Shown here: one piece after another, positions 1,640 to 60,145 of the stretch | Layout: the number at the start of each line of letters is the position of its first letter | Numbering within the stretch: the first letter of the stretch is position 1 | Assembly: GCA_963971535.1 (NCBI GenBank) | Contig: OZ020589.1 | Location: forward strand, 68,301,239-68,365,238 | Direction of reading: 5' to 3' | DNA: 64,000 nt | Origin: Notolepis coatsorum | Taxonomy: Eukaryota; Chordata; Actinopteri; Aulopiformes; Paralepididae | Made by a program: the position numbers and the translations under genes | Notes under the pieces: generated by a model | The model's database searches: none | What the model saw: the letters and a program-made list of their open reading frames with translations, nothing else | What the model was told of the DNA's origin: nothing

Positions 1640-3016
1640 TAGGGCTGACCTTCGAATTTTCTTTTGACATTCGAAGCTTCGGGGGCGAGATTCGATTTTA
1701 ATTCGAAGCTTCGAGATAAAAAAATAATAATAAGAAAAAATGTATATATATATATATTTTTCTAAAGACATTTTTATGTTGTGGGACTTGTACAGCACTT
1801 TCTTCAACTTTGTTAGTGCTGTAAAGTTTAAACCTTTTTAAATCTTAGACAAACAAAACACTTTGCTTTCATAAAATATTGTAAGCCGTCATTTGAGGCT
1901 TTATAAAAGCAGCACAATGGAACACAAATCTGTCAGTGCAGAGTCCGACCTCATCTTAAATAACAAACAGCATTGCTTGTTGTAACCCTTTGGAGGCCAA
2001 ACCCGAGATAGTCCGGGTTAACTCGCCATGCTCTGGGCGCCAAACCCGAGAAATCTCGGATTTTAATCGATATTTCTTTTATTCGCTATATCCATTCATT
2101 TTTCATCCATCCAGCCTGACGTTATCATTGGGAATGGGTCTGAGCTCGCAACGGGCAAATACCGCCGCCTAACGTCTCCCGGATGGTATTGCACATCATG
2201 GAATTCCTCTGGCTGGGGCTGTGCATCAATTTAAGAAGTCCGGTCCAGGTTTTCCTTCTCGGGCATGCAGTATCGTTATAACACATTGACTGGGGACACT
2301 CGGAGCAGTGTGGATTATGTGTTTTGGATATATAACGTTGGATCAATAAACGCGATCAATATTTGGAATGGCGATCAGGAATTGGATTAATCTTTTTGCA
2401 GGACATCAGATGTGAGGTAAGGACTTTATGTTACGAATCTTGGGTTAATCAGATGTTCTTTTCACCGCCATCGGAGCGGGTGTGTGTGTGTGTGAGGTTC
2501 GCGCCGACCAAAGTACGGAGAAGCGATTTTTCAGACCCCGCTTCTGTTCTGAAAACGATTCATAAATCAAGCAACAAATGGCACGATTTCTAACGAAATA
2601 CATTGAAGTTTGATTTGCTGGAGTTTATTGAGATGAGACAGAACGCTCTAGAAATATATTGATATTCATCACGGTATAAAACGGAAATGTATGTATGAAA
2701 AAAAGTATCTGTTTCGTGCATGTTGACTGGAAGCAACTCATTGACGATCACGATCTATTGCTATTATATTTTATCTATTTTAAGCACTCGCAAATAAGTC
2801 CTATCCTACATTGGATAAAGCACTGGCGCTGAAGGGCCACAGCGCCCTCTGCTGTTGGCCCCAAAAGTGTTAACAAAGAGAGGCAGAGTTGATTTTGCAA
2901 CCAAAAAATAAGAAAAAAAAGGAAAAAAAATAGATGTTTCAAATTTTATTTTCCCATTCGAATCCCATGCCCATCGAACGAAGCTTCGAAGCTTCGATGT
3001 ATTTAAGACAGCCCTA
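1640..3016. mobile_element. Second hAT-like element (TTCGAAGCTTCGA ends)
   Basis: Starts TAGGGCTGACCTTCGAA and ends TTAAGACAGCCCTA, with repeated TTCGAAGCTTCG palindromes near both ends. Flanks are ATGATTAT on the left and GTGATTAT on the right, an 8-bp duplication with one mismatch. It contains the piggyBac-like element 1982-2873 and itself sits inside the hAT at 442-3144, so it is third in age order. No coding capacity is seen. Confidence 0.72.
1982..2873. mobile_element. piggyBac-like non-autonomous element, family 2
   Basis: The left end TGTAACCCTTTGGAGGCC has a decayed TTAA; the right end is CCCCAAAAGTGTTAA. The subterminal region carries two CCAAACCCGAGA repeats with palindromes of the CGAGAAATCTCG kind. 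The interior (from about 2190) matches the copies at 6473-7446 and, inverted, 61199-62113, for example GGAATGGCGATCAGGAATTG. No transposase frame. Confidence 0.7.
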
Positions 3017-3172
3017 GTGATTATCATAAAAAAGTGTTTTCTATACAGAGATATCGACATCTGTAAATATCGGTATCGGCCAGAACAGCAATATTAATAT
3101 CGGTTATCGGTATTGGCCACAATTTTCACATCGGTGCATAACTAGTAAAATGTAGCGTGTGTGTGAACTCAC

Positions 3173-32283: not shown

Positions 32284-33190
32284 GATGCTTTTATTTTAGA
32301 ATCCAAACTAATATAGCCTACTTTTTTTTCCCAAATATGGAAAACTCTTCTACAAGAATAAATCACATAGAATTGAGGTGGTGTGTGGACCTGAGGAGGC
32401 TGCCACAATATTCTAAGATTTCCACGACAGCAGCACAGGGGCACACTGTGGCCAAAAGAAAACCAGGGATGCCATCAGTAAAAGATTTTACTGGCCTGGA
32501 ATGTCAAATGACATTGACACATGGGTAAATATCTTTACTTCAATTCCATCAGTGTTTGAAATATCAAGTAACAAAAAAATACATCACTGCTCAATTGATG
32601 CCAATCTGCATTTGATGACATTGTAGTCCCACTTGGTAGAATATGTTAACGAGTCAGGTGCAGAGCTATTATGTGACTTATTTAGTGAGTTTACAGTTAA
32701 GACAAACTAAAGATAAAAAAAAAAAGTTCTCAAATTTAATCTTCAGAGTATGCTCCGGGTCTTCTAGTAATTCACACACTTTTCTTCCTTCTTGTCATTC
32801 AGGTGGCCCAGTGTGTGGACTGCCAGGCCAGTAGAATCCCAATCAAGGACGAACAAAGTTACACCATCAGCGTATTTAGACCACTATCACTGGGGCACGT
32901 GCCCCAGTGTTGATCAGCTGTGCCCCAGTGATCCAATGTCCCCAGAAAAATAATAATTATTATTATTATTATTATTATTATTTTTACTTCGCTTTGAAAT
33001 ATTATAGTGAAATATTTCGCATTTATCTTGTTGAAATCCTCCAACAGGCACTTTTTTGTAAGTTGACTGGTTTGCACACCCCTATGATAGCTAATACATG
33101 ATACATCCCATGGTGCTCAGCTGTCAGCAGGCAGCTGGCCTCGCGCAGTTCACAGGTAAAATCACACAGTGCTGCGTTGCATTCTGTCAT
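32284..33190. other. Unassigned stretch with palindrome and (ATT)n
   Basis: No gene is recognised. An A-run occurs at 32716, a perfect palindrome at 32888-32909 and an (ATT)n microsatellite at about 32951-32983. A cag-GTGGCCCAGTGTGTGGAC sequence at 32803 looks like an acceptor but leads into no known protein. Confidence 0.4.
32888..32909. promoter_or_regulatory. 22-bp perfect palindrome centred on an E-box
   Basis: CACTGGGGCAC is followed immediately by its exact complement, so CACGTG lies at the centre. A further TGCCCCAGTG half follows at 32920-32929. Binding by bHLH proteins is possible from the core alone; nothing else supports a function. Confidence 0.5.
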
Positions 33191-33199
33191 GATGCACAG

Positions 33200-33475
33200 C
33201 TAAGAAAGTTAAAGCAAAGGAAATTCGGGCATTCCAGCCCTCGTGGACAGACTACTACGGGTTTGTGTGTCAGAAGGACCGTGCTGTGTGTACTTATGTT
33301 GAAGGCTTGCCAAACAAAGAGACAATCAAATCAAGGATAAAAGATATCCCCATGTCAGCTCGAAGTGTCGAGCGACGCATCAACGAAATGTCCGAAAATA
33401 TCAGAGAACAGCAAACAGCTGGATTAAAAGATGCTCCGGTGTGCAGCTTAAAGGGACCAACCAACACAGCCCCCA
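33200..33475 (+). pseudogene. hAT transposase-like fragment (ZBED/GTF2IRD2 type)
   Basis: A plus frame encodes AFQPSWTDYYGFVCQKDRAV and then KSRIKDIPMSARSVERRINE plus MSENIREQQ. FQxxWTxxYxF with a following Cys resembles the BED-like start, and IPxSxxxVxRRIxEMSxxIxEQ the downstream helix of hAT-derived proteins. The central region is deleted and the frame runs into unrelated sequence, so it is a relic. Whether it was a transposon or a domesticated copy is not visible. Confidence 0.55.
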
Positions 33476-33577
33476 GACAACGGAGCTCAGTAATGCAAAA
33501 CAGTGCCAGGGATCTCAGGTAGGCAGCGGTTTATTTTCCTACACATGCTGCAGCATGTTAACTTGAACGTCTTTCTC

Positions 33578-33684
33578 GCTCTCTCCCTCTCTCTCTCTCT
33601 CCTCTCTCTCTCTCTCCTCTCCTCTCCTCTCCCTCTCTCCTCTCTCTCTCCTCTCTCTCTCTCTCTCCCTCTCCTCTCCTCTCT

Positions 33685-33741
<57 letters not shown>
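33578..33741. repeat. (CT)n / CTCTCC microsatellite
   Basis: An interrupted polypyrimidine tract of about 160 bp; frames through it are artefacts. Confidence 0.97.
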
Positions 33742-33742
<1 letters not shown>

Positions 33743-34022
33743 GACCTTGCTCCGGTGGAGGGATTGGAGGAGGGTGTGCCTCAGTTAAACCTTGCAATGA
33801 CTGAGCTGTGTTCTGGTCATGTGACACTACACATATTTAATTGAGACCCTTTATTATTTCAATTTAGCTGGAAATACATTGATACATCATTCAGTAACAT
33901 TTTCAGAGCCTTATAACAAAAATATTATTACGGTCACCATTGTGACCAGTGGGATTCTTTTTACTCAAAATGTGAGTATTACCAAGTCACCTTGTGTTCT
34001 TAAAACAATGACAATAAACATA

Positions 34023-34210
34023 GTTATAGTATCGTGTAGCTCCGCTCTGCGTCATACTGTAATACTCTTCCATATCAGTATTAGCACTGAATACATTTTC
34101 ACATGCACCTTTACACACCTCATCTGCCTGGCCACACCCCCATCCGCTCCTCTACATAAGCAGGGGTGTGGCCATACTAACAGCTCCTTCCTTGTTTTCA
34201 CCACGGCAAG
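34023..34210 (+). repeat. Left inverted terminal repeat of the DIRS element
   Basis: Begins GTTATAGTATCGTGTAGC. From CTCTGCGTCATACTG onward it is inverted at the right end (41365-41515), including GTGTAAAGGTGCATGTG and CTTATGTAGAGGAGCGGATG, with a few differences. Confidence 0.88.
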
Positions 34211-35660
34211 TGTCTGTATACACCACTTTGAGACTAGTGAACTGTTGAAGAGGAGCTACGATGAAGGAGCTGCGTTGACATTATATCTTTATTTTCTCTC
34301 TCACTATTTTCGAGGAAATACAGCGATAATGTCTTCGCCACCGGGGTGTCTAGAAGATGATGATCATTCTGACCTCCACCGGCATTTTCGTATTAGGGGC
34401 TCGCGTCGCTGGCCTAATCCCCACCGGCATTCCTCCAGCTCTGCAGTTGGACAGGTATTACCTCCGCTCTGCAGTTGGACTTTGCTTGAGAGGCGCTCGG
34501 CTGTGTGAGGGCTAGCTGCCTCTCCGGGTGGGTGATGGTTTTGATATGCGAGCGCCAGTTGTGTTGCTATGGGGGGAATGGCTACACGACTTACGAAAGC
34601 CGGCTCCAGGCTGGTACCCTTTTTTGCTGCCTCTTAGCGGCGTGGAGAGGGTTCTGGTTTGACGCCCACATTACATGAGCTCCTCATCGGGAGCTCTATT
34701 GCCTGGGACCGTTTCCGAATCTGCGGTTCAATCCCCCGGATTTCTGTACAAACGGATACTCTCTGTCACCGTGCGGGCCCCACCTTTCAAGATGAAAGTT
34801 ACCCGGCGCGAGGGAAGTGGGTTTGGTGTTTCATTATAAGAATACCTCCACGCTCAAGTCAGCTGCAGCCCATGAGGGAATTGTGCCGGCACCGCTGTGT
34901 CTGATAATCACCGTTCTGAAAGACTGTGTTGACTTCTTTTCCTCTTCTCTCTTCGGATGAGGAGAGGGACAGACGGCGGCTGTCTGAAGTGTTGGCCTAT
35001 CTCTCTACCTAGAAAACGGCGTTGTTTTTTACGTGAGTAAAAATTTACTGGTTTTGTTGTATGATGAGAGGTTGTGTGTTCATGTAACGTTAGGCAACGT
35101 AGCTGAGCTCACAACTGGCTGGGTTAAAAACCCTGCAAAGCTATGCATAGTGGCATGTGATCGAGGGGTGAGTCCCTCTCTCAGCTTGTGATGACAATAA
35201 ACAGGTGGCGAGTTTCACATATAAACAGGGCTGTACCTGTTCAAACGAGTCGTATCAGGGGTAAGGTGGTGAGGGGTGGTTTTTCCCCCCGGTTTTCCCC
35301 TGGGCCCCCCCCCCCTCCCCTCAAACATGATTTTGTTTACAATATATTGTTTCACTATGTTTGTGGGGATACAGTGTAACCCCTCAGCTTCTTCTGGGGT
35401 TGTGCTCCTGCTTAGAGAGGCATTTTTTTTCTGAAGATTGTTTGGTTGCTGTCATGTGGCTTTAGCAAGGCCTGTGACCAGTACTTAATCGAGGACTTGT
35501 GTCTTCTCTCGTTATGAAAAACGGCGTTCCTCTTACGGTAGTGAGAGTGTACTTTTGCCTTTTTTGTTGTGATGGAGGGTTGTGTGTGTCGTCAAGATCC
35601 ACAACTGGGTTAGGTGTTGGCCTACAGAAGTTACATGTGTAAGCTCTTGTACCAGGGCCC

Positions 35661-36602
35661 TTAACACTTTCGCGGCCACTGGGATGAGTCTAATTAATCT
35701 CAAGAGGACCGTGAAATGTAAACAGACGTGGGGCTGTTTGTAGAGCTAAATCTATACTTTATAGTATTGCTATCTGTCCATTCTCATTGTGAATTGAGAC
35801 CATAAACCGTCCCTTCAAAATGGCTTAAAGAAGAAGAAAAAAATCATCAATACGTTCTCATTTTATAGCGCAGTGAATATAAGCATTATACCGGATTTGG
35901 TCTAGTATATTTCCTGTAAGCCGAGATAATGGGCTAATAGCTAATAACGTTAAATCCAATGGCATTTCCGTTTTACAGATGCTACAGAAATAACTCAAAC
36001 TGCATATGATCGGCACGATCCCAAAGCATGTATGCATGAAAGGGGGGGGGGGGGGGCGGGGGACGTCGTTTCTGATTATTGATTAGCAATAACCGCGTTA
36101 GCCTCATTAGCCTCATAGGCCGAACGCCTGGTTGAGTATCATAATAATGCCCAATTGGGCTGTACTTTACGTGAAAAAGATCTTACCGTGTTCCGGGCTG
36201 ATCCCCCCCGAGCATTTCCCCGTTATCGATCTCCATCTGGTAGATCGATATGTCCATTGGCTGATGATAAATCCCCTTATTGCATGGTGAAATCTGCGAT
36301 ACAAAACGTAATCCAAGCTACATGCTGCACATCTAGAATCCTGCTAACTGAAATCTCCATTGAAAGTAAAAAAAAATACTGATCCGTTCAGCCACAGGGC
36401 ACACTGCATTATCGCGATAGCGCCCCTAAGAGGATCTGGCCGGTATTGCACCTTCTCGAATTCATAGAGTAGGGTAAATCTGCAGTGCCGCTCGGCGCCC
36501 TTGAATAGGTTATTAATATGGAATAAAAGCAATAACAACTTGCCACAGATTTGGGTGGAATCGAAACACGGAGATCTCCGTTGTTCGTCCCCATTGTGTT
36601 AA
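35661..36602. mobile_element. piggyBac-like non-autonomous element, family 3
   Basis: TTAACACTTTCGCGGCC at the left and CCCCATTGTGTTAA at the right, TTAA on both sides; 942 bp. The interior differs from families 1 and 2 and includes a poly-G run at 36041. It inserted in the DIRS element. Confidence 0.7.
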
Positions 36603-37059
36603 AGGGGCCCTCTCTTGGTCTGTGTTTTTCTTCCTTTAGGAAAAGGTGTAAAAATTCAGGTGGCAGGTTCGCACATGAGCCTATGTGAAGCTGTTACCTT
36701 GACAGGTGTACATGCGCTTCATGTAGCACGCTATGACTGGTGTCATGGCTCTGCTTTGTCATTGCATCGTATCAGGGGTGAGGGGTCATGAGGGGGTGAA
36801 CTGATAAAACCTCCCTCCCCTTTTTCTGATTGGTCAGGGGGTTGGGCCTCCTGTCCTTCGGGCTTCCTGTCACGTTGCTGGGTCAGCGTGTCACAGGGTA
36901 GGGAGGGGGGGGGCGGGGAGGGAGTTTCCTGGTCCCACGCCATATTGGGCGGTGGGCCACGGAATTCCCCCCACCATAGAGTACGTCACTGGGCGCGTTT
37001 CTATTGGTTGTGAGACTTTCGTGAGTTATTTTCAGGCTCCATGTTGTGGACCTCTGTTA

Positions 37060-37430
37060 CAGGGAGTTTCAGAGCCTCCTCCTCAGGGAGTTTCAGAGCC
37101 TCCTCTGTGAGTTTCAGAACCTCTCTCTCAGTGAGGGAGCCTCCTCAGAGTTTCAGAGCCTCCTCCTCAGATTGTCAAGATGAGTAGAACTTAAAAAGAA
37201 GTTCTGCTCTGTTGTATGTGTATTGAGCTTGGTAGGTGATGCAATGCAGTAGAGACGATTTGTTCTTCTGCTCTGCTCCCTACTAGTAGTGTGTATATTG
37301 GGTCAGAGCCTCCTCCTCAGGGAGTTTCAGAGTTTCCTCCTCAGGGAGTTTCAGAGCCTCCTCTGTGAGTTCAGAGCCTCCCTCTCAGTGAGGGAGCCTC
37401 CTCAGAGTTTCAGAGCCTCCTCCTCAGAGA
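37060..37430. repeat. GGAGTTTCAGAGCCTCCTCC repeat clusters
   Basis: Two clusters (37065-37170 and 37303-37430) of about 25-bp units centred on GTTTCAGAGCCTCCTC are near copies of each other, separated by about 130 bp of other sequence. They are inside the DIRS element. Confidence 0.85.
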
Positions 37431-38017
37431 GTCCTAGTCCAATTGTTACATAGCTCAATGTTGCATATGTCTTTTCAATTTATTGCTCACGTGGGAAGTC
37501 TCTCTGGGGGTTCCCCGTCCCCTCTTTTGTGAGCAGGTTGACGGGGTGTTGTTTAGGGAGTTCCCTGACTCCTCGCCTGTAATGGTCGGTTGAGTCATGG
37601 GATTCCCCCCGCCATAGGGTACGTCACTCCCCGTCCCCTCTTTTATGGATCAGGTTGACAGGGTGTTGTTTTCCCTCTGCCGCGTCGTATGGGACCCATG
37701 TCCGTATTTTTTTCTGTGAAAAAATCTGCTTCTTGTCGTTCTCCCAGGCGGCCTGGAGGAACGGTATCTGGGTTCTTGTTAGAATGTCCATTGATATGTT
37801 TTGGGTCTCGACCAGTGATGCGTTGCTCATGGGACAAGATTGCACTCCGTGCAGCCAAAGATTTGAGCAGAAGCGCGTGCACGCACACAGGAATGTGCTG
37901 CACTCACCAACTCGCTATAAGTACCCACCTGGGCTACTTTGCATATCAATAGCGCCGGTCGTCGGGTGTGTTAAATGCATTCTCAGATACATTCACACCT
38001 AACTTGTGAATGATATG

Positions 38018-39341
38018 TGTAACTGAGGGGTACAATTCCCTGACTGTATTGATAAGTATGGTATCATTAAACCACTACCGTCTTATGTACATTACTACTG
38101 GCCATACAGTACACAGGTATCTTATGATGAACACTTCCCACAATGACTCGGTTCCACACAAAACTGGATTTAAGTATTTATTAGCAGCAATGATAGTACA
38201 TAATATACTTTACTTTGGATGCGCTTATAAGGCAAAGGAATGTGCGTAGGCAAATCAATAACGTATGTCCATTCTCATATTACGCAGGAGATAATAATAC
38301 AACCTGAATCTTAGGAATTATATCTATGGTACTCTGGTAATATAGCGGGAGATACTGGTAGGGTCCCTCCGGTCGTAAGCCAGCAAGGGGAGAGGATTTG
38401 TCGGTAGTAGAGTCTGGGTCAACGATGATAAAGAGACTCCAAGTACAGGAGACGGTGCAATAATCTCTTGATCCGCAGACGAATACAGCTGTTCTCCGTA
38501 GCATGCAGCTCCGCATGGAAGAAAGCCAGCCAGCCTCAGGATTCTGAGAGGCGGGCTCGACGTGGCTCCTCACAGGGTAAATCCCACACAATTGTGGGTG
38601 TCGGCGATTCTCCGCTCCATCAATTACAGGACCAAAAGCAAATATAATCCAGCCGAAAAGGGCTATGCAGTCGTCGGTAGGTTATCCAGGGTACATGATC
38701 CACACGGTCCTCGTCTAGGGCCTCTCGGGTGAAAGCGCCAGGGTAAGCAGCCCAGCCTGGATAAGCACTCTAGCTGGTACGAGGAAACGTTGGTGATGCT
38801 GGTCACTGTAGAACTGTAGCCGCACGATACACTATACACAAATAGACTATTACTGACTTAATAGAATAGGTCGAACTCGACGGTACAGCGTTAAACTCTG
38901 ATACTTCAGTTATTAATTCGCACGCGGTCTCAATGCTCTATTTGGGGCCAAACAGGCCATACTTCACCGCACGTTGTATCGTGGGTGAGGCTTCAACTTA
39001 TTGGGTAACTCTACTTCTGTATTCACCTGCGCCGTATTTATACGTTGGGTGAACAAACTAGTACCAGCTTTATTCCTGTCTCATATCCTTGCGCAGAACC
39101 GTTCATGTCCAGGCAAGTCCCCGGCGGTGACTTTGAACCAGACCTTGGAGGTATGGCAATGGCGCCTGGTGGACCGCTGTCCAATAGGAGAATGAAATAT
39201 TATGGTCTGTACTAGGCTAAAGGGATATTCCGTGTATATGTACAAGGAATACACAAGGGATATCAAACGATATACAAATATTATGCAATATATATCAATC
39301 AATAAATATATATATTCGGTTTAATCTGATCCTTCGTAACA
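38018..39341. mobile_element. Solo BEL/Pao LTR, 1324 bp, perfect TSD
   Basis: Starts TGTAACTGAGGGGTACAATT and ends CCTTCGTAACA (TG...CA), homologous along its length to the LTRs of the BEL element at 53099-59931. ATATG flanks both sides (38013-38017, 39342-39346), the 5-bp duplication of this group. Recombination between two LTRs of a full element would leave exactly this. Confidence 0.93.
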
Positions 39342-41226
39342 ATATGTGTTACATTCCATTCGTAGAGGCAATTAGGCACTGTCTTTAGTCTGTGCTCAAG
39401 CAAGGGGACATTTATGCGCATGCGCGGGAGCGTGCGTGCACGTGGCATCATTAGCGTGCGTGCAATCAGAGTTGATATCAGGAACGCACCGCTGGTCTCG
39501 ACGTGTACATAGTGCTGGCCCTGGGTGCTTCTGATAGGAACCATGCATGGGCTTGCGTGCCTTGGTTGCTCATCATTGAAACAGCGTTTTTATGGGGCAA
39601 CTGGGATGGAGTTTGTCTCTTCCGAGCGCCAGTGTACTAGGCTTGTCTTGACGAATTCTCGTTCATCTCTGGGGGATGTTAACAGAATAGATCAAAGCAT
39701 TGGTAAAGGGGTCTCACGCCCTTGGGGTGGGCCACCGGGCACGGTGCTTTGTGTTCTGACCGTCTGGGTGGCACCCTCTATAATGTTTTGGATCGACACG
39801 CGTACCTACCCCCCTCCTGGGACTGGGGATGGCGGTGTGATTAGGGCACGGGACTGGTTCTGGTCGCGCCGGACCAGGTCAGTTAACCCGTTGTCCGCCG
39901 GGGCGCAGATCTGCTGTTCTGTTACCCTGAGGGACTTGTGCTTTTTCGGGGGGAAAATGCCGGGTCGGTCCGGGCGTTGCAGGGTTTGACTTTATGGAGA
40001 TGTTCGTGGTTATGTTACTACGTGTTATCCCTCACTGTTGCTTGGTCCTTCTCCATTCTTTTTCGCCCCTCTCTTCTCCTGCTTGGCGGGGCTGGGAGGG
40101 GGCTGTTGAGGTGGTTCTTGTAGAACTCCTCTCGCATCCCTTTGTACGTCCCGGTCCGCCGGGCCCGGGTTTCGAAATTGTTTTCGTCGACCTGTTGGCC
40201 TGGGTTAACCCCTTCTTGAAAACTGAATACGTGTACTGCTGTATAGCCAGTGTATACCCGCAGTTGTGTTTTGGAGTTTTTTCTTGGGGGGTTATAGGAA
40301 CAACCGCCTCATGTTAGAACCAAGGGGGTGGTTGGTTCCCTGGTGTGTTGGTAGCGGAGTCAACTCTCGGGGTAGGCCGGGTTTGGCCCCGTCTACCTGT
40401 GAGTGTGCCCCCGCACCTTTCATGACGTCTGCCAATCATGTCAGCCTTCTCTGCCTCTGCCCCTCTAGAGAGTCAAGGTTTTTTTTGTGGAGGCTGCGAC
40501 AATGCGACATGGTGCACAGCATGCCAGCATACGCCCCTTCCGCCGGGGTGCTGTTTCAGCAGACCCCTTTGGCACCTGTCTAGTCCGCAGTGCTCCAGGC
40601 TCAGGTCGAGTGGCCTGTTGCCTGGATTGAGGGATCGACCTCTTTTGGGGGTTGTCTCCCCGGTGCGCTGCTTGGTCCCGCTGTGGGTGTAGCCTCTTGA
40701 GTGCTTCGGGGCGGCGTGCTGTAGGGGGGAAGGGCCTGCTCTTGGATGGGCCCTGTCCGAATACGCTGGCGATGTGGGGGGTGGTGTCACTAGTGACCGC
40801 CTGGTGGGGTCTCGATGCTGCGGCGTCGTTGGCCTCACCAGGCCCCCTTTTCCGGGGGGTCCAGTCCCTTCCTGGGGCTGGGTCCTCCTTCGCGCTCCGC
40901 TGCTACGGCCTTGCCACGGGGTTGGGTTTTTGCCCTTGACCCCGTGATATTAGGGGTTGTAACAGGGGTTTTGTTTCTTCCCGTTCGTTCCCTAGTGGCA
41001 TGTGGGTTGCGCGTTTGTGTAGTCGTGGGTTCTTCTGTGGAAGGTAAGTCCCACGGTCTGCTCACCCTGTGCGTTTGAGTTGCTAAACTCCTCTTCGCAC
41101 AGTCGGATCCGATACCCTCCCGTCCTCCATTAGGGGGGTCCGGGGGCTCGGGTCCTCCCCGGGTCTGATGGTTGTGGGGGACCTCAGCGGGTACATTTGT
41201 CGAGCTCCCGCTCTGCTTAGCTCCTG

Positions 41227-41316
41227 TATTACAGTATGACGCAGAGCGGCGCTACACGATACTATAACGTACGGTTATGTCTATAACCATAGTTATATGA
41301 GTGTAGTGACGCTCGG
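41227..41316. repeat. Internal complementary region of the DIRS element
   Basis: The left half (41227-41268) is complementary to the first 42 bases of the element with one mismatch. The right half (41266-41316) is an exact complement of the last 49 bases. The shared AAC at 41266-41268 corresponds to the GTT at both element ends. In DIRS replication this region is thought to template circle closure of the cDNA. Confidence 0.85.
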
Positions 41317-41364
41317 CGTCGGACTCACTGAGGACCCCGTGGTCTTGCCTTTGTGGTGAAATAC

Positions 41365-41557
41365 TTGGGAAGGAGCTGTTATGGCCACACCCCTGCTTAT
41401 GTAGAGGAGCGGATGGGGGTGTGGCCAGGCAGATGAGGTGTGTAAAGGTGCATGTGAACATTTATTCAGTGCTAATACTGATATGGAAGAGTATTACAGT
41501 ATGACGCAGAGCGTCACTACACTCATATAACTATGGTTATAGACATAACCGTACGTT
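41365..41557 (-). repeat. Right inverted terminal repeat of the DIRS element
   Basis: Inverted copy of the left repeat, extended outward by about 45 bp (TCACTACACTCATATAACTA onward) to GTACGTT. The extension is the part matched by the right half of the internal complementary region. Confidence 0.88.
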
Positions 41558-41828
41558 TTATTAGGTTGAAATAATGTGGTTGTGTACTTATTTTTTCTGT
41601 TAACTTATTATGGATTGAAAACTGAAAACCAAACAAAATGTGCTATATAGGCCTATAGCCTACCGTCTGCGTCGAATATGAAATAAAGGCATCTAAATGA
41701 TAAATTTTTTCTTTAAAAAAAACAAGCTCAATCAAAAGATTCTACATTATTCCAAAATAGTGAAGAAAATGACTTTAGGAAGAAGAAAGGCAGAGGCTCT
41801 GGTCCTTGCTCCAAAGGCAGTGGGTGAT

Positions 41829-42205
<377 letters not shown>

Positions 42206-42569
42206 AATTATTAGAATCCCCTGAGTTAATTAGCAACATAAAATACGCTGCACTGTGAATGTGTGTGCGTTCGTACGTGTGCCATATCTAATTTCTAATT
42301 TCCATAGTGTTTCTATACAGGGCATGTGCATGTGTATGTAGGATCTTATATGTGTGCATGTAACCATGTAGTAAACCTTTAATAGTTACTAAAGGTTATA
42401 AGTTATGTCTATGAGAGAGGTATGTCTGACATGTCAAGTGTAGCACTGCAGACTGGAAACACTTAGCTGCCAGCATGACTACGATAAATTTAGCTTCTGT
42501 CCTCTCTGTGTGTGTGTGCTTCAGATACAATTATTAGAATCCCCTGAGTTAATTAGCAACATAAAATAC
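42206..42569. repeat. 40-bp direct repeat pair
   Basis: ATTATTAGAATCCCCTGAGT and the next 20 bases (TAATTAGCAACATAAAATAC) occur at about 42207 and again at 42530. Between them is CA/GT-rich sequence without a gene. 42570-42950 is unassigned. Confidence 0.8.
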
Positions 42570-42984
42570 ACTGCATCTTCACTATCAACAAACCTTTTAA
42601 CAGCCAATGTACTTACACACATATTCACGAATTCAACGGTATGGAATGTGGGTAATCTAGAGGTGTTCATAGTTGAGCAATGTGGCTCATCGCCTAATGA
42701 CCTGAGTGTCCTTAATGTTCTTGAATGGATTTATATGAATGGACAGCATCTCCTTTTATAGATGTGTGAATATTTTATGTGTACATTCGTTTGTAGGTCG
42801 ATAATACTCAATAAATACATACATACACAGACAGCCTCATTACAACAGTTTTTCAAATATTTCTCAGCTCAACTAAAAGTACCCTTTCTTTTCCTATCAC
42901 ATTTCAGATCACTGAAAAAACTTGTTAGGTAGAAGCCCGATACATGGGACCAGCATCTAGATAGCATCTAGATAGCATCTAGAT

Positions 42985-43547
42985 GCGGTGATGTTTGGTC
43001 TACGGACCAAGAAACAGATGCCCACTAAATTCTCTCCATTCTACATGATGTTTGGCAGGGAAGCCAGATACCCATCCCAGGTCCATGAGGAGTACATGAT
43101 ATCTTCTGTTTGAACTGATTGCTTTAACTTGTTGGTGTTTTAGAATTTGTATCGATATGTTATTTATATTTATAAAACTTCTTTCAAAAGGTTGACAGCA
43201 GCGTGGAGAGTGTTGTGGAGAATGACAGCCCTACAGAGGACATCACTCATCTTAGTGAGGCCCTGCAAGCTGCTCGAGATGCCATTGCCACAAGTCACCA
43301 CAAAAACAGAAAGAGCACACAATCTAATTTCAAGTTCGAAAACAGTGGTAATGGTATGTTATGGATATTTGTGACATGCTGAAGTATTATATCTATAGGA
43401 TATTTTTGTTCAAGTCATTATAATATAAGTCCTATAACATTAACATAATACCGAGCTGGGATGGTTCTTTCATTTTGTCAGATGACCACAGTGAACTCTG
43501 TCGTATCTGTGGGGAAATGGAGGATGACCAGGCTGGGAGTTTCCTGG
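42985..43547 (+). pseudogene. Spliced-looking integrase C-terminal exons (Ginger/GIN-like)
   Basis: Segment 1 (42985-43098) reads AVMFGLRTKKQMPTKFSPFY then MMFGREARYPSQVHEEYM; FSPFxxMFGRxxRxP is the end of a Gypsy/Ginger-type integrase core. Segment 2 (43191-43347) starts after an AG acceptor, ends G|GTAATG and encodes VDSSVESVVENDSPTEDI plus ALQAARDAIATSHHKNRKS. Segment 3 (43482-43547) follows TTTTGTCAG and encodes DDHSELCRICGEMEDDQAGS, in phase with segment 2 (G|AT). Such exon-intron structure fits a Ginger-like DNA transposon or a domesticated integrase gene rather than an LTR element. The catalytic DDE part is absent. Confidence 0.6.
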
Positions 43548-52951: not shown

Positions 52952-53098
52952 GGCATGGGTAGGTAGGGAATTTATTTTATTTAATTTTTTTATTTTATTC
53001 TTTCCCACGGCGACTATGGATAGGGAATTTCTTTATTTAATTCACAACAACATGGATGCATGTACTCTGCCAGCATGTTTAATATCCATAATACTAAA

Positions 53099-55391
53099 TG
53101 TAACTGAGGGGTACAATTCCCTGACTGTATTAATCAAGTATGGTATCATTAAACCACTACCGTCTTATGTACATTATACTGGCCATACCGTACACGAGTA
53201 TATGATGAGAACACTTCCCCACAATGAATCGGTTCTACACAAAGTGGTAATTAAGTATTTATTGCAGCAAAAGGTACATAACATACTTTAATTGAATGCA
53301 CTTGTAAGGCAAAGGAATGTGCGTAGGCAAATCAATAATGAATGTCCATTCTCATATTACGCATGAGATAATAATACAACTTGAATATTAGGAATTATAT
53401 CTAGGGGATACTGGTAGGGGGTTCCACCGGTTGTAAGCCAGCAGGGGGAGCAATGCTCTAATGCAAAGTAGAGATGTTCCGATACCATTTTTCCCTTTCC
53501 GATCCGATTCCGATACCTAAGCTTTGGGTATCGGCCGATACCGATATTTATCCGATACCAGTGCATACAAAAAAAATAAAAAATTATATAAATACTTTTT
53601 TTTTTTTTACCGATACTGTTATACTGTTTTTAGTAATAACTGGAAAGTAATGGTATTTATTCAACAACAGGTGATTGTATAGATTTGTATTAGTATCATT
53701 AATCAATGAGTATGGGCTGCAGCACTGCAGATATACCCTACTCCAATGATCCACACGGACATTAAACGGTGTTGCACTCGCTACTCCGTGGCTCTGCAGA
53801 TATACCCTATTCAGTCTGTAAGCTAGTGGCAGATAGAACGTTCATGTTGTGATTTTTGATGCAAAATAAATATTCAACATTCTCTTTTGAAACTCCGCCT
53901 CAGACTCTTATCCTTTGGCACTTGCTGTACTTTGCTTGCAGGTCTGCAGCCATTATTGCTGGATTATAAATAGCACCAACTTTAGACACGGTAACGTTAT
54001 CAAGCTAAGCTAACTGACCTAGCTCGTCTTCCCGCATTGACATTTGATAACGTTAGTAATAGTCAGCTAACGCTAGTCAGTAGCTACTTAACTTAAATAC
54101 AATTCACCGTGGGTGCATTATTGTTGATAGACGGTCACGGACAGTGTTAGGTCCTGGAGAAAGGACAGGCGATCATCTGATTTGATGTAACGTTAAAGCG
54201 GATGTTGTTCCAACTAGCTATCTTTCCAGCTAATGCTATCATAACACCAGCAAAACACATCCCGTCCGAGCTCCCAGTCACACCGCACTGTCGGGGACAA
54301 TGGAATTTAAGAAAGTGTATCTGCTGTTAAAATGACACAGCATCACACTTTAAAACATGTTCATTTTATAATCCTCACTCTCCGCAGGACTCGGCAGGAG
54401 ATAAATTACATCATGGGATCGGAGGCTAGAATTTACGTGTACTCGCCGATACCGATACCAGCATTTTAGGCAGTATCGGCGGCATTTCCGATACAGCGGG
54501 GACTCAATAGGCTCCTGGAGGCGGTATATTACTCCCTGCTCGGCAGACGAAAGGCAGCGACTGTAATCCCAGTATGCGTGCAGCACAGGTGGAAGCCGGT
54601 CAGCCTCTCCAATAGAGACGGGCTCGAATGATGCTCCTCACAGGCAGGTCCCACAGCAGTGGGTGTAGACGATTCTTCTCCGCTCTAACAGCCTGGTCCA
54701 AAGCAATAATAATAATCCAGTCGGAAAGGGGGTCTGCATTCACCGGTGTAGATCCTCCGGTGCGCGGTGGTTCACATCAACTAAGTCGAACTTGACGTTA
54801 TCCAACCAAGCCCTGATACTTTACTATCCTATTCGCACGCGGCTATAAGTGCTCTATTTAGACACACTGTTGCTCACTTCACTTGGTCTTTGACTCGTGA
54901 TGAAGGCTTACTAGTAAGGAGCGAACGATACGTTGAACAAACGTATTAGGATAAAACAAGACTCTATCTTGGGGCAATACGAGCCCTACTTCACCGCACG
55001 TTGCATAGTGGGTGAGGCTTCACTTGTTACTAAGACTGAACTGAACGGACTGCGGACTGAACTACTTCTGTATTCACCTGCGCCATATTTATATGTACGG
55101 GGAACAAACATAGTGCCAGCCTTATTCCTGTCTCGTAGTCCTGGGCAAAGCCGGGCATGTACAGACAAGCCTTGACGGTAGCTTTGAACTCGACTCTGGG
55201 GGTAAGACACTGGCGCTGGTGGCACGCCATCCAATAAGAGAACGAAATATTATGGTCTGTAGTAGGTTAAAGGGATATTCCGTGTATATGTACAAAGAAT
55301 ACACAAGGGATATCAAACGATATACAAATATTATGCAATATATATCAATCAATAAATACATATATTCGGTTTAATCTGACCCTTTGTAACA
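53099..55391 (-). repeat. BEL 3' LTR with a hAT inside
   Basis: TGTAACTGAGGGG ... CTTTGTAACA. Interrupted after ATGCAAAG by a hAT (53469-54493). Without it the LTR is about 1.27 kb, agreeing with the 1324-bp solo LTR at 38018. Confidence 0.93.
53469..54493. mobile_element. hAT copy inside the BEL LTR, right end lost
   Basis: Begins TAGAGATGTTCCGATACC; ends abruptly at GCATTTCCGATAC, joined to LTR sequence AGCGGGGACTC. Comparison with the other LTR shows about seven LTR bases (TCTGGGT) were lost with the hAT end. It matches 17162-17497 in its second half. CCGATA words cluster near 53480-53560. Confidence 0.85.
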
Positions 55392-55491
55392 GCCGCCTCC
55401 TAATTAGTCCCACCTAATTAGCTAAGCAGAGACAGATTAACCGCACTGTCCACTACTCAATGTCCGTTGTGAGGGTAGGCAGTTCACAAAG

Positions 55492-55750
55492 TCAGGTGTC
55501 ATGGTCGTCATTAAGCGAGTCGGGGAGCCTTGGCGACTCTATCAGCCTCGCCACGGGTCGGTTGTATGTCCGCCCTTGGCCGAGCACTTCTGCCACTCTG
55601 ACCTTTCCGTCGGCACCAGTGGTCACTTTGCTTACGCGGCCGGCCGGCCACGCAGCTCGGGGTAGTGACTGGTCTATGGTCATGACGACTGGACGGGATG
55701 AAGGGGGGCTTAGGAGGAAGCGGGCCTGAGACTGCTTTGATCTGTGCTTG
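55492..55750 (-). pseudogene. BEL integrase C-terminal domain stub (DUF5641-like)
   Basis: The minus frame reads FLLSPPSSRPVVMTIDQSLP, AAWPAGRVSKVTTGADGKVR, TYNRPVARLIE. LPRxxWxxGRVxxxxxGxDGxVRV...YxRPVxxL is the conserved tail of BEL/Pao integrases. It follows the protease region directly; the intervening catalytic domains are gone. Confidence 0.8.
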
Positions 55751-56535
55751 GCTGTGCTTCCTCCTCCTCCGTCTGTTTCTCTTGTTTGCTCTGTACCCCG
55801 TCTGAGGAGGGGCCGGTCCCGGCCGCCCCGTCAAGGAGTCGCTTGGGGTGCTGGGTTCGAGGTCAGCTACGTCTGAAGCGCAGCTGAGGGGGGTGGAGTT
55901 CCGAACTCCCTCTGGTGCCCACGGTTCTCTCACAGGCCTCTCGCTTAATGTCAATAGCCTCTGCTGTACGAGGGAGTGGCCGGTGTCGCTCGCCTTTGTG
56001 TGTAGGCAGCGTGTAGACGTGGGTTGACTGTCAAGTCCGTAGAGGGGGCCCTGGAGCGTCCATCCCAGTCGGGTCTGAACCGCGACTGGGCATCCTTTGG
56101 GTCCGACGTGGGCCGCCTCAATTGGGAGAATGAGGTCCGCGTGGTCGGAGCCGATGAGCAGGGTCGGTGTGGCGCCGTCGATAAGCGGTATAGGTAGTTG
56201 ACGTAGGTGCACATACTTGGCCATCAGCTGTGGGATGGGGTAGGTGTACTGAGACAAGCCTATATCGTGGCTGGTGAAGACGTTGGTTATACTATACTGC
56301 TTCTCGGGCTGGTCCACCGCTGCTATCTTGAAGGAGACCTTTTCACCTTTTATGGTCTTCTGGTCCCTTCTGATGGTGCGTATGGTCATGGTATCTTTGA
56401 CACCCCGCAGGCCCAACTGGGCTGCTGCGGAAGCGAGGAGGAGAGTCTTTTCAGACCCATCGTCCAGGACGGCGTAAGTGTCCAGGACCTTGTCCTCGTA
56501 GCTCAGGAGCACTCTGACCACTTTGAGGAGCACTC
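55751..56535 (-). CDS. BEL/Pao aspartic protease region (DUF1758-like)
   Basis: The minus frame starts LLKVVRVLLSYEDKVLDTYA, then VLDDGSEKTLLL with the active-site DDG in place of the more usual D(S/T)G, followed by IGLSQYTYPIPQL, PTLLIGSDHADLILP and TRLGWTLQGPLYG. IGxDH...LGWxLxGP is typical of BEL proteases. The frame is open into the region of the deletion joint (before 55750). It is reached from gag only by a frameshift at the G8/C8 run 56536-56543. Confidence 0.88.
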
Positions 56536-59072
56536 GGGGGGGGTCCCGCTATGCTGGTCAATGTGGAGCACTCCTGTTGGTGGTGACATAGAATCTATAT
56601 GGTGCGAGTCGCACCGTGACTCCCAGTGTCTGCTGTAGCAGTCGGGACACCAGGGAGCGGTCTGGTGGAACTTTGGTGCTGGTGCCACCGCCTCGGCATG
56701 GTACATTACCGCGACGGGCCCACTCTGTTGTCCTGGCTGACGCCTGTTGATGTCATGCAGGACCTCCAAGTGGGTGCCACCGCACCTGCTGCACTTCTTC
56801 TTCAAGCGGCACTCAGCTGCTAGGTGGCTGCGCGCGCAGCGGAAGCAGCAGCGGTGGTCCTTGATCCACTGACTCACCTCGTCCGTGGTCAGCTTCCCGA
56901 AGGTGTCTCATTGGTACAGCCGATGTTCTCCCTCACAGTACTGGCACTCAATCTTCCACTGGTCCTCTTTCGTCGAGGGGGTGTGGTGGTTCTTGTGCTG
57001 CGGTACTGATTCGGCTTGGTGCATAACGGTCACCAACCGGCGGTTATCCGTTGATCCCCGAGGTCCGAGTCTTGGGCTTGGTCCACTCCATACGAACGTG
57101 TCGAGTCGTAGGCTACTGACCTCCCTGGCGAGGAACTCAGATAGGTCTAGGAGGGATGCCTCTGGACCGTTGGGGTCGCGGTAGTCTCTCTGCCGCCGAA
57201 AACGCTCTTGTCGGGCGGGAGGGAGCTTCTCTAGTATCCTCTCTACATTAGAGTTAGCGTACAGTTCATAGATCCCCTTTTCCTTTTGGGACCCCAGCAT
57301 CCCTACCAGGGACTGTACCTTGATAGAGAGGTCATCTAATGCTCTGTTGTCTCTGGCTGGGGGGAGACGGTCAATGTCTCTTATCTCCTGTATCACATAG
57401 TCCCATATGCGTCCATAACGTTGGTCGAGGGCTACTAGAGCCGCGGTGTATGGGGTAGTAGAGCTGGAATATGCCAGCGCTATATTGTGCGCTCTGGGCA
57501 CCTTCAGGTGCTTGAGTAGGATAGCATACTTGTACGGTTCATCTGGTACGTCGGACAGCATAGTCTCTAAGCACATTCGTAGCTCTGTGTACTGTGCTCT
57601 GTTCTCGTGTGTGAAGTCCGGGAACGTCGGTGTGCCAAGGTACGATGCCATGGATGACTGGCACATCGGTGAGCGTTGGGGGAGAGGCCTCCTAGGCGAG
57701 TCTCCTCTTGCGTGTCGTCTTGGGCTGGTGCTTGGTGGGTACCGAAGGTCGGGTACCCAGGTGCTGTTCCTCGGGGCTGGCGGTGCGTCAAACTCACCCG
57801 TGAGTTGAGTCGGGGGTTTGTAGCGCAGGGCCTCGGGGCTGACTTCTGGGCTGTACTGGACCTCCTGGTCCAGAGTACGTTGCTGCTGGTCGGGGCTGTA
57901 CTGGGCCTCCTGGTCCAGAGTACGTTGCTGCTGGTCGGCTTGACATTCCTCCTCCTCCTCCTCCTCTTCCTCTGCTAGGTCCTGGAGTCTTCGGTTCAGT
58001 CTCTCGGCGTGGTCCGGTTCTTCCCGGTTGCTGGGTCTCGTATGGACCGGCCGGGGAGGGGGTTCGGAGACGTGGACAGGATCCTCCTGTTGGCGGGGTC
58101 CCGGGTCGCTTGGTCGGGTAGGGGAATGCGTCCTAGACCCTTGTCGTGACGATCTCCGGGAGCTCCGTGCGGAGAGAGGGGGTGTCGCCATGGCAACCAG
58201 TTTGTCCATCAGCTCCGCCTGCAGCCGGTCGCGCTCTGCCTCGCGCTGGGCATGGGCTGCGTCGCGCGCTGCTTCGCGCTGGGCATTGGCGGCGTCGCGC
58301 TGCGCATTGGCGCTGGCCTGGGCAGCGTCGCGCTGGGCATTGGCGCTGGCATGGGCGGCGTGGAGCTGTGCATTTGCGACGTCGCGCTGTGCATTGGCGG
58401 CGGCGTGCTGTGCATCGGCGCGGCTTCTTTCAATGTTCTCTTCCGTCTGAAGGCGTCTGGTCTCCAGTCTTATGCGGTCGTCTTCACTCCTTTGTTGCGC
58501 CTGGAAGCGCTCTCGCTCGGTTGCAGAATGTTCGCGTTCACGGAGGGCTTGCGCTTGGAGTTGCGCGTGAAGGCGCTCTCGTTCGCCTGTGCCAGCATCT
58601 TGTCCGCCTCGCTGGGGGAAGACGCCGGTCGAGGCGATCGGCTCCCGGCAGTACTCGTTGGAGATCCGTTCTCCTGTCGCGTACCGAGGAGATCCATCTC
58701 CTGGGTGCGCGTCTCTTCTTGTGGTGGGTCGGGTTCCGTCCCGGGAGGGCTTTCTTTATCCTGGAGCTCTCCGGGGACTGTCCCGTTGGCATTGTCTGGG
58801 GGTAAAGTCATGTCATGTCCCTCCTGGTCCCCCCCGTGAGCTTGGTCAGTTACGTTAGAACCCACTAGGGTCTCTACTGGCGGGGTAGCCTGGTCGGTAG
58901 GGTTGGACATAATTTTACTATCCGCTTTAGTTACTTTATCCGTATTTAACTTCCTTTTAAAGCTAGGTATTGGACTGACAACGTAGTCCTCTAGGTGAAG
59001 AGGTGGCTGCCGTCGGCGCTCTGGGCGATCTAGCTTAGGAGAACCGTTTGTGGAGTGTTCATCATCGGCCAT
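56536..59072 (-). pseudogene. BEL/Pao gag, one stop and one frameshift
   Basis: ATG at 59072 starts an acidic, polar N-terminal part (MADDEHSTNGSPKLDRPERR). A frameshift near 58580 is needed to continue into a long Ala/Arg/Glu coiled coil with repeated ANAQRDA units (about 58560-58215). A DUF1759-type region follows (TFPDFTHENRAQYTELRMCL, YAILLKHLKVPRAHNIAL). A TGA at 56908-56910 interrupts the reading just before two zinc knuckles, CFRCARSHLAAEC and CSRCGGTHLEVLH. Antisense open frames here, up to 219 codons, are shadows. Confidence 0.88.
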
Positions 59073-59110
59073 GTCAATATTAATATTATATTAATATTAC
59101 GCTAATTCTC

Positions 59111-59127
59111 TCCGGCTCGAAGGACCA
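59111..59127 (-). other. Primer binding site matching tRNA-Tyr
   Basis: Two bases inside the 5' LTR the minus strand reads TGGTCCTTCGAGCCGGA, exactly complementary to the 3' end of eukaryotic tRNA-Tyr (TCCGGCTCGAAGGA plus CCA). Seventeen continuous matches support tRNA-Tyr priming. Confidence 0.85.
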
Positions 59128-59129
59128 AT

Positions 59130-59931
59130 TGTAACTGAGGGGTACAATTCCCTGACTGTATTAATCAAGTATGGTATCATTAAACCACTACCGTCTTATG
59201 TACATTATACTGGCCATACCGTACACGAGTATATGATGAGAACACTTCCCCACAATGAATCGGTTCTACACAAAGTGGTAATTAAGTATTTATTGCAGCA
59301 AAAGGTACATAACATACTTTAATTGAATGCACTTGTAAGGCAAAGGAATGTGCGTAGGCAAATCAATAATGAATGTCCATTCACATATTACGCATGAGAT
59401 AATAATACAACTTGAATATTAGGAATTATATCTAGGGGATACTGGTAGGGGGTTCCACCGGTTGTAAGCCAGCAGGGGGAGGCAATGCTCTAATGCAAAG
59501 TCTGGGTCAGCGGGGACTCAATAGGCTCCTGGAGGCGGTATATTACTCCCTGCTCGGCAGACGAAAGGCAGCGACTGTAATCCCAGTATGCGTGCAGCAC
59601 AGGTGGAAGCCGGTCAGCCTCTCCAATAGAGACGGGCTCGAATGATGCTCCTCACGGGCAGGTCCCACAGCAGTGGGTGTAGACGATTCTTCTCCGCTCT
59701 AACAGCCTGGTCCAAAGCAATAATAATAATCCAGTCGGAAAGGGGGTCTGCATTCACCGGTGTAGATCCTCCGGTGCGCGGTGGTTCACATCAACTAAGT
59801 CGAACTTGACGTTATCCAACCAAGCCCTGATACAAAGAATACACAAGGGATATCAAACGATATACAAATATTATGCAATATATATCAATCAATAAATACA
59901 TATATTCGGTTTAATCTGACCCTTTGTAACA
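59130..59931 (-). repeat. BEL 5' LTR with a 0.45-kb deletion
   Basis: Same ends as the other LTR. Sequence corresponding to 54840-55292 of the other LTR is missing; the joint GCCCTGATAC/AAAGAATACAC shares TAC with both breakpoints, a microhomology deletion. Outside it I see only a few single-base differences (for example TTCACATA against TTCTCATA). Confidence 0.92.
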
Positions 59932-60145
59932 CTAAAGGTTTGACTAAGATTTCTATGAAACTTTATTCAAAAAACAAAACAAAATTTTTTTTTTTTTTTT
60001 TTTATATTTTTTTTTAAAAAGTCACAAAATATATTGGGTCGCATCTAAATCGGCAGGGTCGGTCGGCAATCGGAAACAAACTATATTTTTGTTATGCCTC
60101 AGCGCGTAACGCGTCCAATAAATGCGCCTTTAACATGCTTTATAT

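Follow-up and report, generated by a model that had tools for sequence, protein, structure and literature searches.

In a 64,000-nt stretch of the Notolepis coatsorum genome (contig OZ020589.1; hereafter the window), an element with the terminal structure of a DIRS retrotransposon occupies positions 34023–41557. We consider it very likely that this copy is a member of a young, multi-copy, non-autonomous DIRS1-like family whose gene-less master kept the DIRS cis signals. These are the left inverted terminal repeat (ITR) with its leader, the 3′ tail, the internal complementary region (ICR) and the right ITR with its extension. Four observations carry this reading: the anatomy of the copy, the gene-less interior it has in common with other copies, the differing insertion sites of these copies and the presence of autonomous DIRS elements in the same genome. 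The family was probably spread by enzymes borrowed from another element.

Terminal structure and coding content of the window copy

The outer limits given in an earlier note on this DNA hold, with a GTT at the left border (34023–34025) and another at the right border (41555–41557). The ITR arms (34034–34176 and, on the minus strand, 41380–41522) are 97% complementary over 143 nt, with two mismatched positions in a 132-nt ITR core. The longest exact inverted word measures 79 nt, and none in 50 dinucleotide shuffles exceeded 18 nt, which excludes chance as the origin of the inverted structure. The left end and left ITR together span 34023–34176 (plus strand), and the first part, 34023–34065, recurs inverted in the ICR (41226–41325, plus strand). 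The left half of the ICR (41226–41268) is complementary to this left end over 43 nt with one mismatch, the right half is an exact match to the last 49 nt of the right end (by eye), and the two halves overlap on the AAC at 41266–41268. The right extension (41523–41557, plus strand), which ends in the border GTT, pairs with the ICR only. A comparison of the flanks, AATAAACATA before the left GTT and TTATTAGG after the right one, found no target-site duplication (TSD), GTT alone being in common. The ITRs, GTT borders, ICR and lack of a TSD described in the earlier note are thus borne out, save that it had read the left half of the ICR as 42 nt with one mismatch. By its ITRs, its ICR of overlapping halves, its right extension and its lack of a TSD, the copy is DIRS1-like. 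No Rfam family reached the gathering score in 33000–43000, and a 22-base ITR pattern gave 0 matches in viral contigs.

The element had also been described as lacking recognisable coding sequence, and this is confirmed by the six-frame profile search that had been proposed and by shuffles of open reading frame (ORF) length and periodicity. We scanned six frames of 34208–38014 and 39340–41382 with Pfam and found no match to reverse transcriptase (RT), RNase H or recombinase in either part, nor to a methyltransferase domain, for which there was no positive control. The two matches below E 1 (DUF3964, 0.21; TDP-43_N, 0.11) were chance-like and far under the cut-off. As controls, the BEL-type interior elsewhere in the window returned DUF5641 at 1.2e-7, and the RT frame of L047, an autonomous DIRS of this genome treated below, returned RVT_1 at 1.3e-25. 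Two further frames of L047, that of the recombinase and the long one, matched no Pfam family. Pfam is therefore uninformative for the tyrosine recombinase, and the test for this gene rests on comparisons of L047 with the copies (tblastn and profiles, protein search).

In ORF length and 3-base periodicity, the interior parts stay inside the range of shuffled sequence, the lowest shuffle counts being 5 of 60 for the longest plus-strand ORF (39347–40300) and 13 of 100 for periodicity in the same part. In contrast, the BEL-type interior (55392–59122) beats nearly all shuffles. A short ORF of 59 codons (34329–34505, plus strand) has 15, 34 and 17 variants at codon positions 1, 2 and 3 across 21 aligned rows, and these variant positions give no sign of coding constraint.

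Related copies and autonomous DIRS elements in the genome

A genome search with the first 378 bases of the element scored 40 places including the window, at 96–100% identity, drawn from 4157 unverified first-look candidates. We compared 20 of the 39 other scored places (the best 19 and the 21st; 9.8 kb each; loci L009–L028), two of which, L010 and L018, contain long runs of N. The interior beyond 35000 is common to 18 of these 20 copies, with parts of 36599–37812 found in 17 and parts of 39494–41225 in 12; L011 and L017 have only the 5′ part in common within the stretch fetched. The non-coding interior is therefore not unique to this locus, as the earlier note had allowed it might be, and its other alternative, a decayed pol throughout the interior, was found neither by Pfam in the window copy and L015 nor with the L047 proteins in the window and the 20 copies.

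All 20 copies start at the same exact left end, behind 5′ flanks of which 19 are different, one flank being common to L013 and L022. Both ends are visible in eight copies, spaced 4.1–8.4 kb apart with inserts, and the last trinucleotide is GTT in six of them, GGT in L012 and GAT in L020. The ITR core has one or two mismatches in five other complete copies (L025 with an additional gap), five in L023, and one mismatch plus two gaps over a shorter alignment in L024; most of the right ITR is gone from L027. Pairwise mismatch among the aligned segments has a median of 2.5% over the 5′ kilobase (14 rows), 2.7% over the middle (6 rows) and 3.5% over the right part (9 rows); single values run from 0.72 to 5.36%. 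The copies resemble one another as closely in their ends as in their interior, which indicates that the two spread together, recently and without genes.

The L047 proteins had no match in the 20 copies at E ≤ 1e-4 and none in the window at 1e-3, and six frames of copy L015 matched no Pfam family up to E 1. The same protein search recovered L047 itself after up to 40% random substitution (5/5 at each of five levels) and in 0/5 cases at 50%. This tested absence of DIRS protein matches, together with the same gene-less interior in the copies, argues that a gene-less master was amplified.

Two left-end types, GTTATAGTATCG and GTTATATATCG, occur among the window copy and L009–L028. In all eight copies with an ICR (window, L010, L012, L015, L019, L023, L024 and L025), the variant present in the ICR is the one at that copy's own left end, barring single private changes; the variants of L010 and L012 were read by eye. 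The first 18 bases are identical between end and ICR in the window copy, L015, L023 and L024 (four of ten rows), and L019 and L025 show the same variant with one private difference within those 18 bases. Such agreement is consistent with an ICR that renews the ends, or with two subfamilies in which both were inherited together.

Autonomous relatives were sought with an 80-residue DIRS RT motif. This query gave at least 150 scored matches at 70–75% identity, none with an internal stop, drawn from 25,669 first-look candidates. The one scored place examined, L047, is a complete DIRS with ITRs, an ICR, GTT ends, the RT frame mentioned above and long overlapping frames. Its first 17 bases show one difference from L020 and L023, and two changes plus a gap relative to the window copy (all by eye), and its ICR junction is similar to that of the family.

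With nhmmer, the 3′ end of L047 aligned to 40814–41550 of the window (E 9.9e-24) and to four of the other five elements compared (E from 7.6e-22 to 4.8e-17), L027 being the one of six without a match; the alignment accuracy is low, 0.54–0.59. The bulk of the score comes from the 3′ untranslated-like stretch, the ICR and the right end, and a recombinase-like scrap (AAASLASPGPLFR versus AAASWSSPGPFVR) is weak by itself (E 4.3 in tblastn, 0.1 and 0.0044 with profiles). Blastn with short words found 72% identity to L047 over 136 columns at 41178–41306; default blastn at 1e-8 gave no hit of L047 in the copies. In profile searches the left and middle interior had no match in L047, and the right interior had a best E of 0.0076 with high bias. 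When the right interior was aligned collinearly over a longer stretch with its last 55 bases left out, the score was 194 against a best of 202 among 30 shuffles, and this alignment is not claimed here. The interior is thus not wholly foreign, its 3′ tail pointing to DIRS descent, and this match suggests that the family arose from some DIRS in the broad group to which L047 belongs.

We propose that transcription would start from the left ITR and that an autonomous DIRS would supply the RT that copies the family RNA. The ICR would then line up both ends so that a circle could be closed, and the tyrosine recombinase of that DIRS would insert the circle at a GTT-like trinucleotide, without target duplication. 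We infer each of these enzymatic steps. The earlier note had suggested replication in trans. Its part concerning a gene-less family with DIRS ends is supported by the copies, and the trans step itself, judged from the sequences, stays at the level of a probable mechanism. Our tentative view, held with slightly less than even confidence, is that this is a parasitic DIRS lineage of several kilobases, with ITRs and a non-coding interior of its own, which proteins of autonomous DIRS elements with different ITRs maintain at high copy number. If this is true, every stage of DIRS movement (reverse transcription, closure of the circle and recombination) would be able to work in trans, and little beyond the terminal bases and the ICR would be needed in cis.

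Several points weigh against a gene-less family mobilised by such a partner. The ends of L047 are similar to those of the family, but its ITR bodies differ, and the autonomous element with the same ITRs and ICR that the earlier note had wanted looked for was not found, one RT locus, L047, having been compared. The agreement between end and ICR may result from descent in two subfamilies rather than from recopying. Individual copies have large private deletions and inserts, and L020 and L027 have both outer ends and no ICR. The 20 copies were picked from the best 5′ matches, so that the sample leans towards close relatives.

As to the partner alone, the chances seem evenly balanced that the family depends on a DIRS of another type than L047, one that either escaped notice here or has been lost. 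The ITR bodies and most of the interior are unlike L047, the copies are 0.7–5.4% apart and not identical, and L047 was taken from a list that favours the commonest type; the near-identity of its first 17 bases to L020 and L023 and the likeness of the ICR junctions speak for the L047 type instead.

The other explanations concern the family itself. If the copies were dead autonomous DIRS elements, their genes would have been lost after each insertion by deletion or decay, in keeping with the many private deletions and with the persistence of a DIRS-derived 3′ tail. We regard this as highly unlikely, since 18 of the 20 copies have the same gene-less interior, diverged by a few percent, and losses that occurred separately would not leave one and the same non-coding stretch behind; the decay needed to conceal pol (>40% substitution) also misfits two differences in 132 positions of the ITR core. 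Marginally less credible still is an autonomous element with proteins of an unknown kind. Long frames do occur towards the right in some copies, for example one of 313 amino acids on the minus strand of L015, but such frames vary in place and length among nine complete elements, the window copy stays within shuffles in both ORF length and periodicity, and the ORF at 34329, the only frame so examined, is without constraint. Ordinary duplication of chromosome segments, which the common 5′ flank of L013 and L022 might suggest, is the least probable and is refuted as a general account by the 19 different 5′ flanks with the same exact left end. A DNA transposon with long inverted repeats was rejected, as it leaves the ICR and the lack of a TSD unexplained.

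Interior layout and neighbouring repeats

After removal of two inserts (35665–36598 and 37813–39494) and one TSD copy each, the sequence belonging to the window copy itself amounts to 4,907 bp, which corrects the 5.3 kb given in the earlier note. The 5′ part of the non-coding interior (34177–35664, plus strand) is common to other copies, most of which have about 0.5 kb at position 35000 that is missing from the window copy. Next follows a piggyBac-like insert (35665–36598) with TTAA at 35661–35664 and 36599–36602. The middle interior (36603–37804, plus strand), also common to other copies, contains direct repeats at 37060–37171 and 37318–37428. It is followed by a hAT-like insert of the form CAG...CTG (37813–39494) with an 8-bp TSD, GTCTCGAC, at 37805–37812 and 39495–39502. 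In an exact 12-mer test, the piggyBac-like site is uninterrupted in 11 of the 20 other copies, and so is the hAT-like site in 11 of 20; both insertions are younger than the element. The hAT-like insert in turn contains a solo long terminal repeat (LTR; 38018–39341) with the 5-bp TSD ATATG at 38013–38017 and 39342–39346. The right interior (39503–40813, plus strand), common to other copies and without significant match to L047, leads into the 3′ tail related to autonomous DIRS (40814–41225, plus strand), which consists of the recombinase-like scrap (40817–40855) and then 3′ untranslated-like sequence.

The solo LTR is related to the LTRs at 53093–55391 and 59124–59934. These belong to an LTR retroelement at 53093–59934, whose direct LTR-like flanks are 98.9–100% alike in pieces and which, by its DUF5641 match, is presumably of the BEL type. 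A long TCTG/CCTG repeat at 42022–42197 adjoins the DIRS-like element.

A partner was also sought via Phage_integrase (PF00589), and this candidate was rejected: the 18 matches (L029–L046) are mutually alike and lack the ends of the element, and their sole match to it is a copy of the piggyBac-like insert in L041. There, sequence 73–79% like the insert part 35737–36546 lies at positions 83–356 and 2563–3083, beside the PF00589 locus, and from this second occurrence the insert is a repeat in its own right. The 18 matches form one family of about 2.3 kb, apparently Crypton-like by its layout; several copies at different places, with a frame of 419 amino acids, are 99.8–100% alike, so the family was possibly active recently.

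Relation to known elements

DIRS replication is largely a model drawn from the ends of the elements. A family that keeps the cis signals without genes indicates the sequences that may be enough, and the copy-by-copy link between end and ICR allows the circular-junction model to be tested. Such elements would escape annotation keyed to RT or recombinase domains; 40 places in this genome, the window included, were scored here by the 5′ end of the family.

We found no non-autonomous DIRS of the ITR/ICR group in the open-access literature (Repbase not covered). TOC1 of Chlamydomonas is a several-kilobase element without recognised RT or recombinase genes; it has split direct repeats and belongs to the PAT-like group. 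Within the same genome, L047 is alike in its ITR-ICR-ITR layout, its GTT ends and its related 3′ tail and ICR, but it differs in encoding an RT frame and long overlapping frames and in its ITR bodies.

Among ray-finned fish, Table 3 of PMC3266345 includes the DIRS1-like elements GaDIRS1, GaDIRS2 and TnDIRS1a. Like the family described here, these three have ITRs, an ICR of overlapping halves, a right extension, a GTT start and an AAC junction. They end in GTT (GaDIRS1, GaDIRS2) or GAT (TnDIRS1a), both of which occur in copies of this family (PMC3266345). These fish elements are listed there at 5.3–5.9 kb, most with a long ORF overlap, whereas this family is without recognisable genes. SIRE of Trypanosoma cruzi, a truncated non-autonomous form of VIPER, is likewise a gene-less relative of a recombinase-bearing retrotransposon, and its helper-driven mobility was proposed and left open by the authors, as the SIRE account in PMC6681497 has it. 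According to the same account, SIRE measures about 0.4 kb and is a simple remnant of the ends of VIPER, whose group has split direct repeats; the family described here, in contrast, is several kilobases long and has its own interior and ITR/ICR ends.

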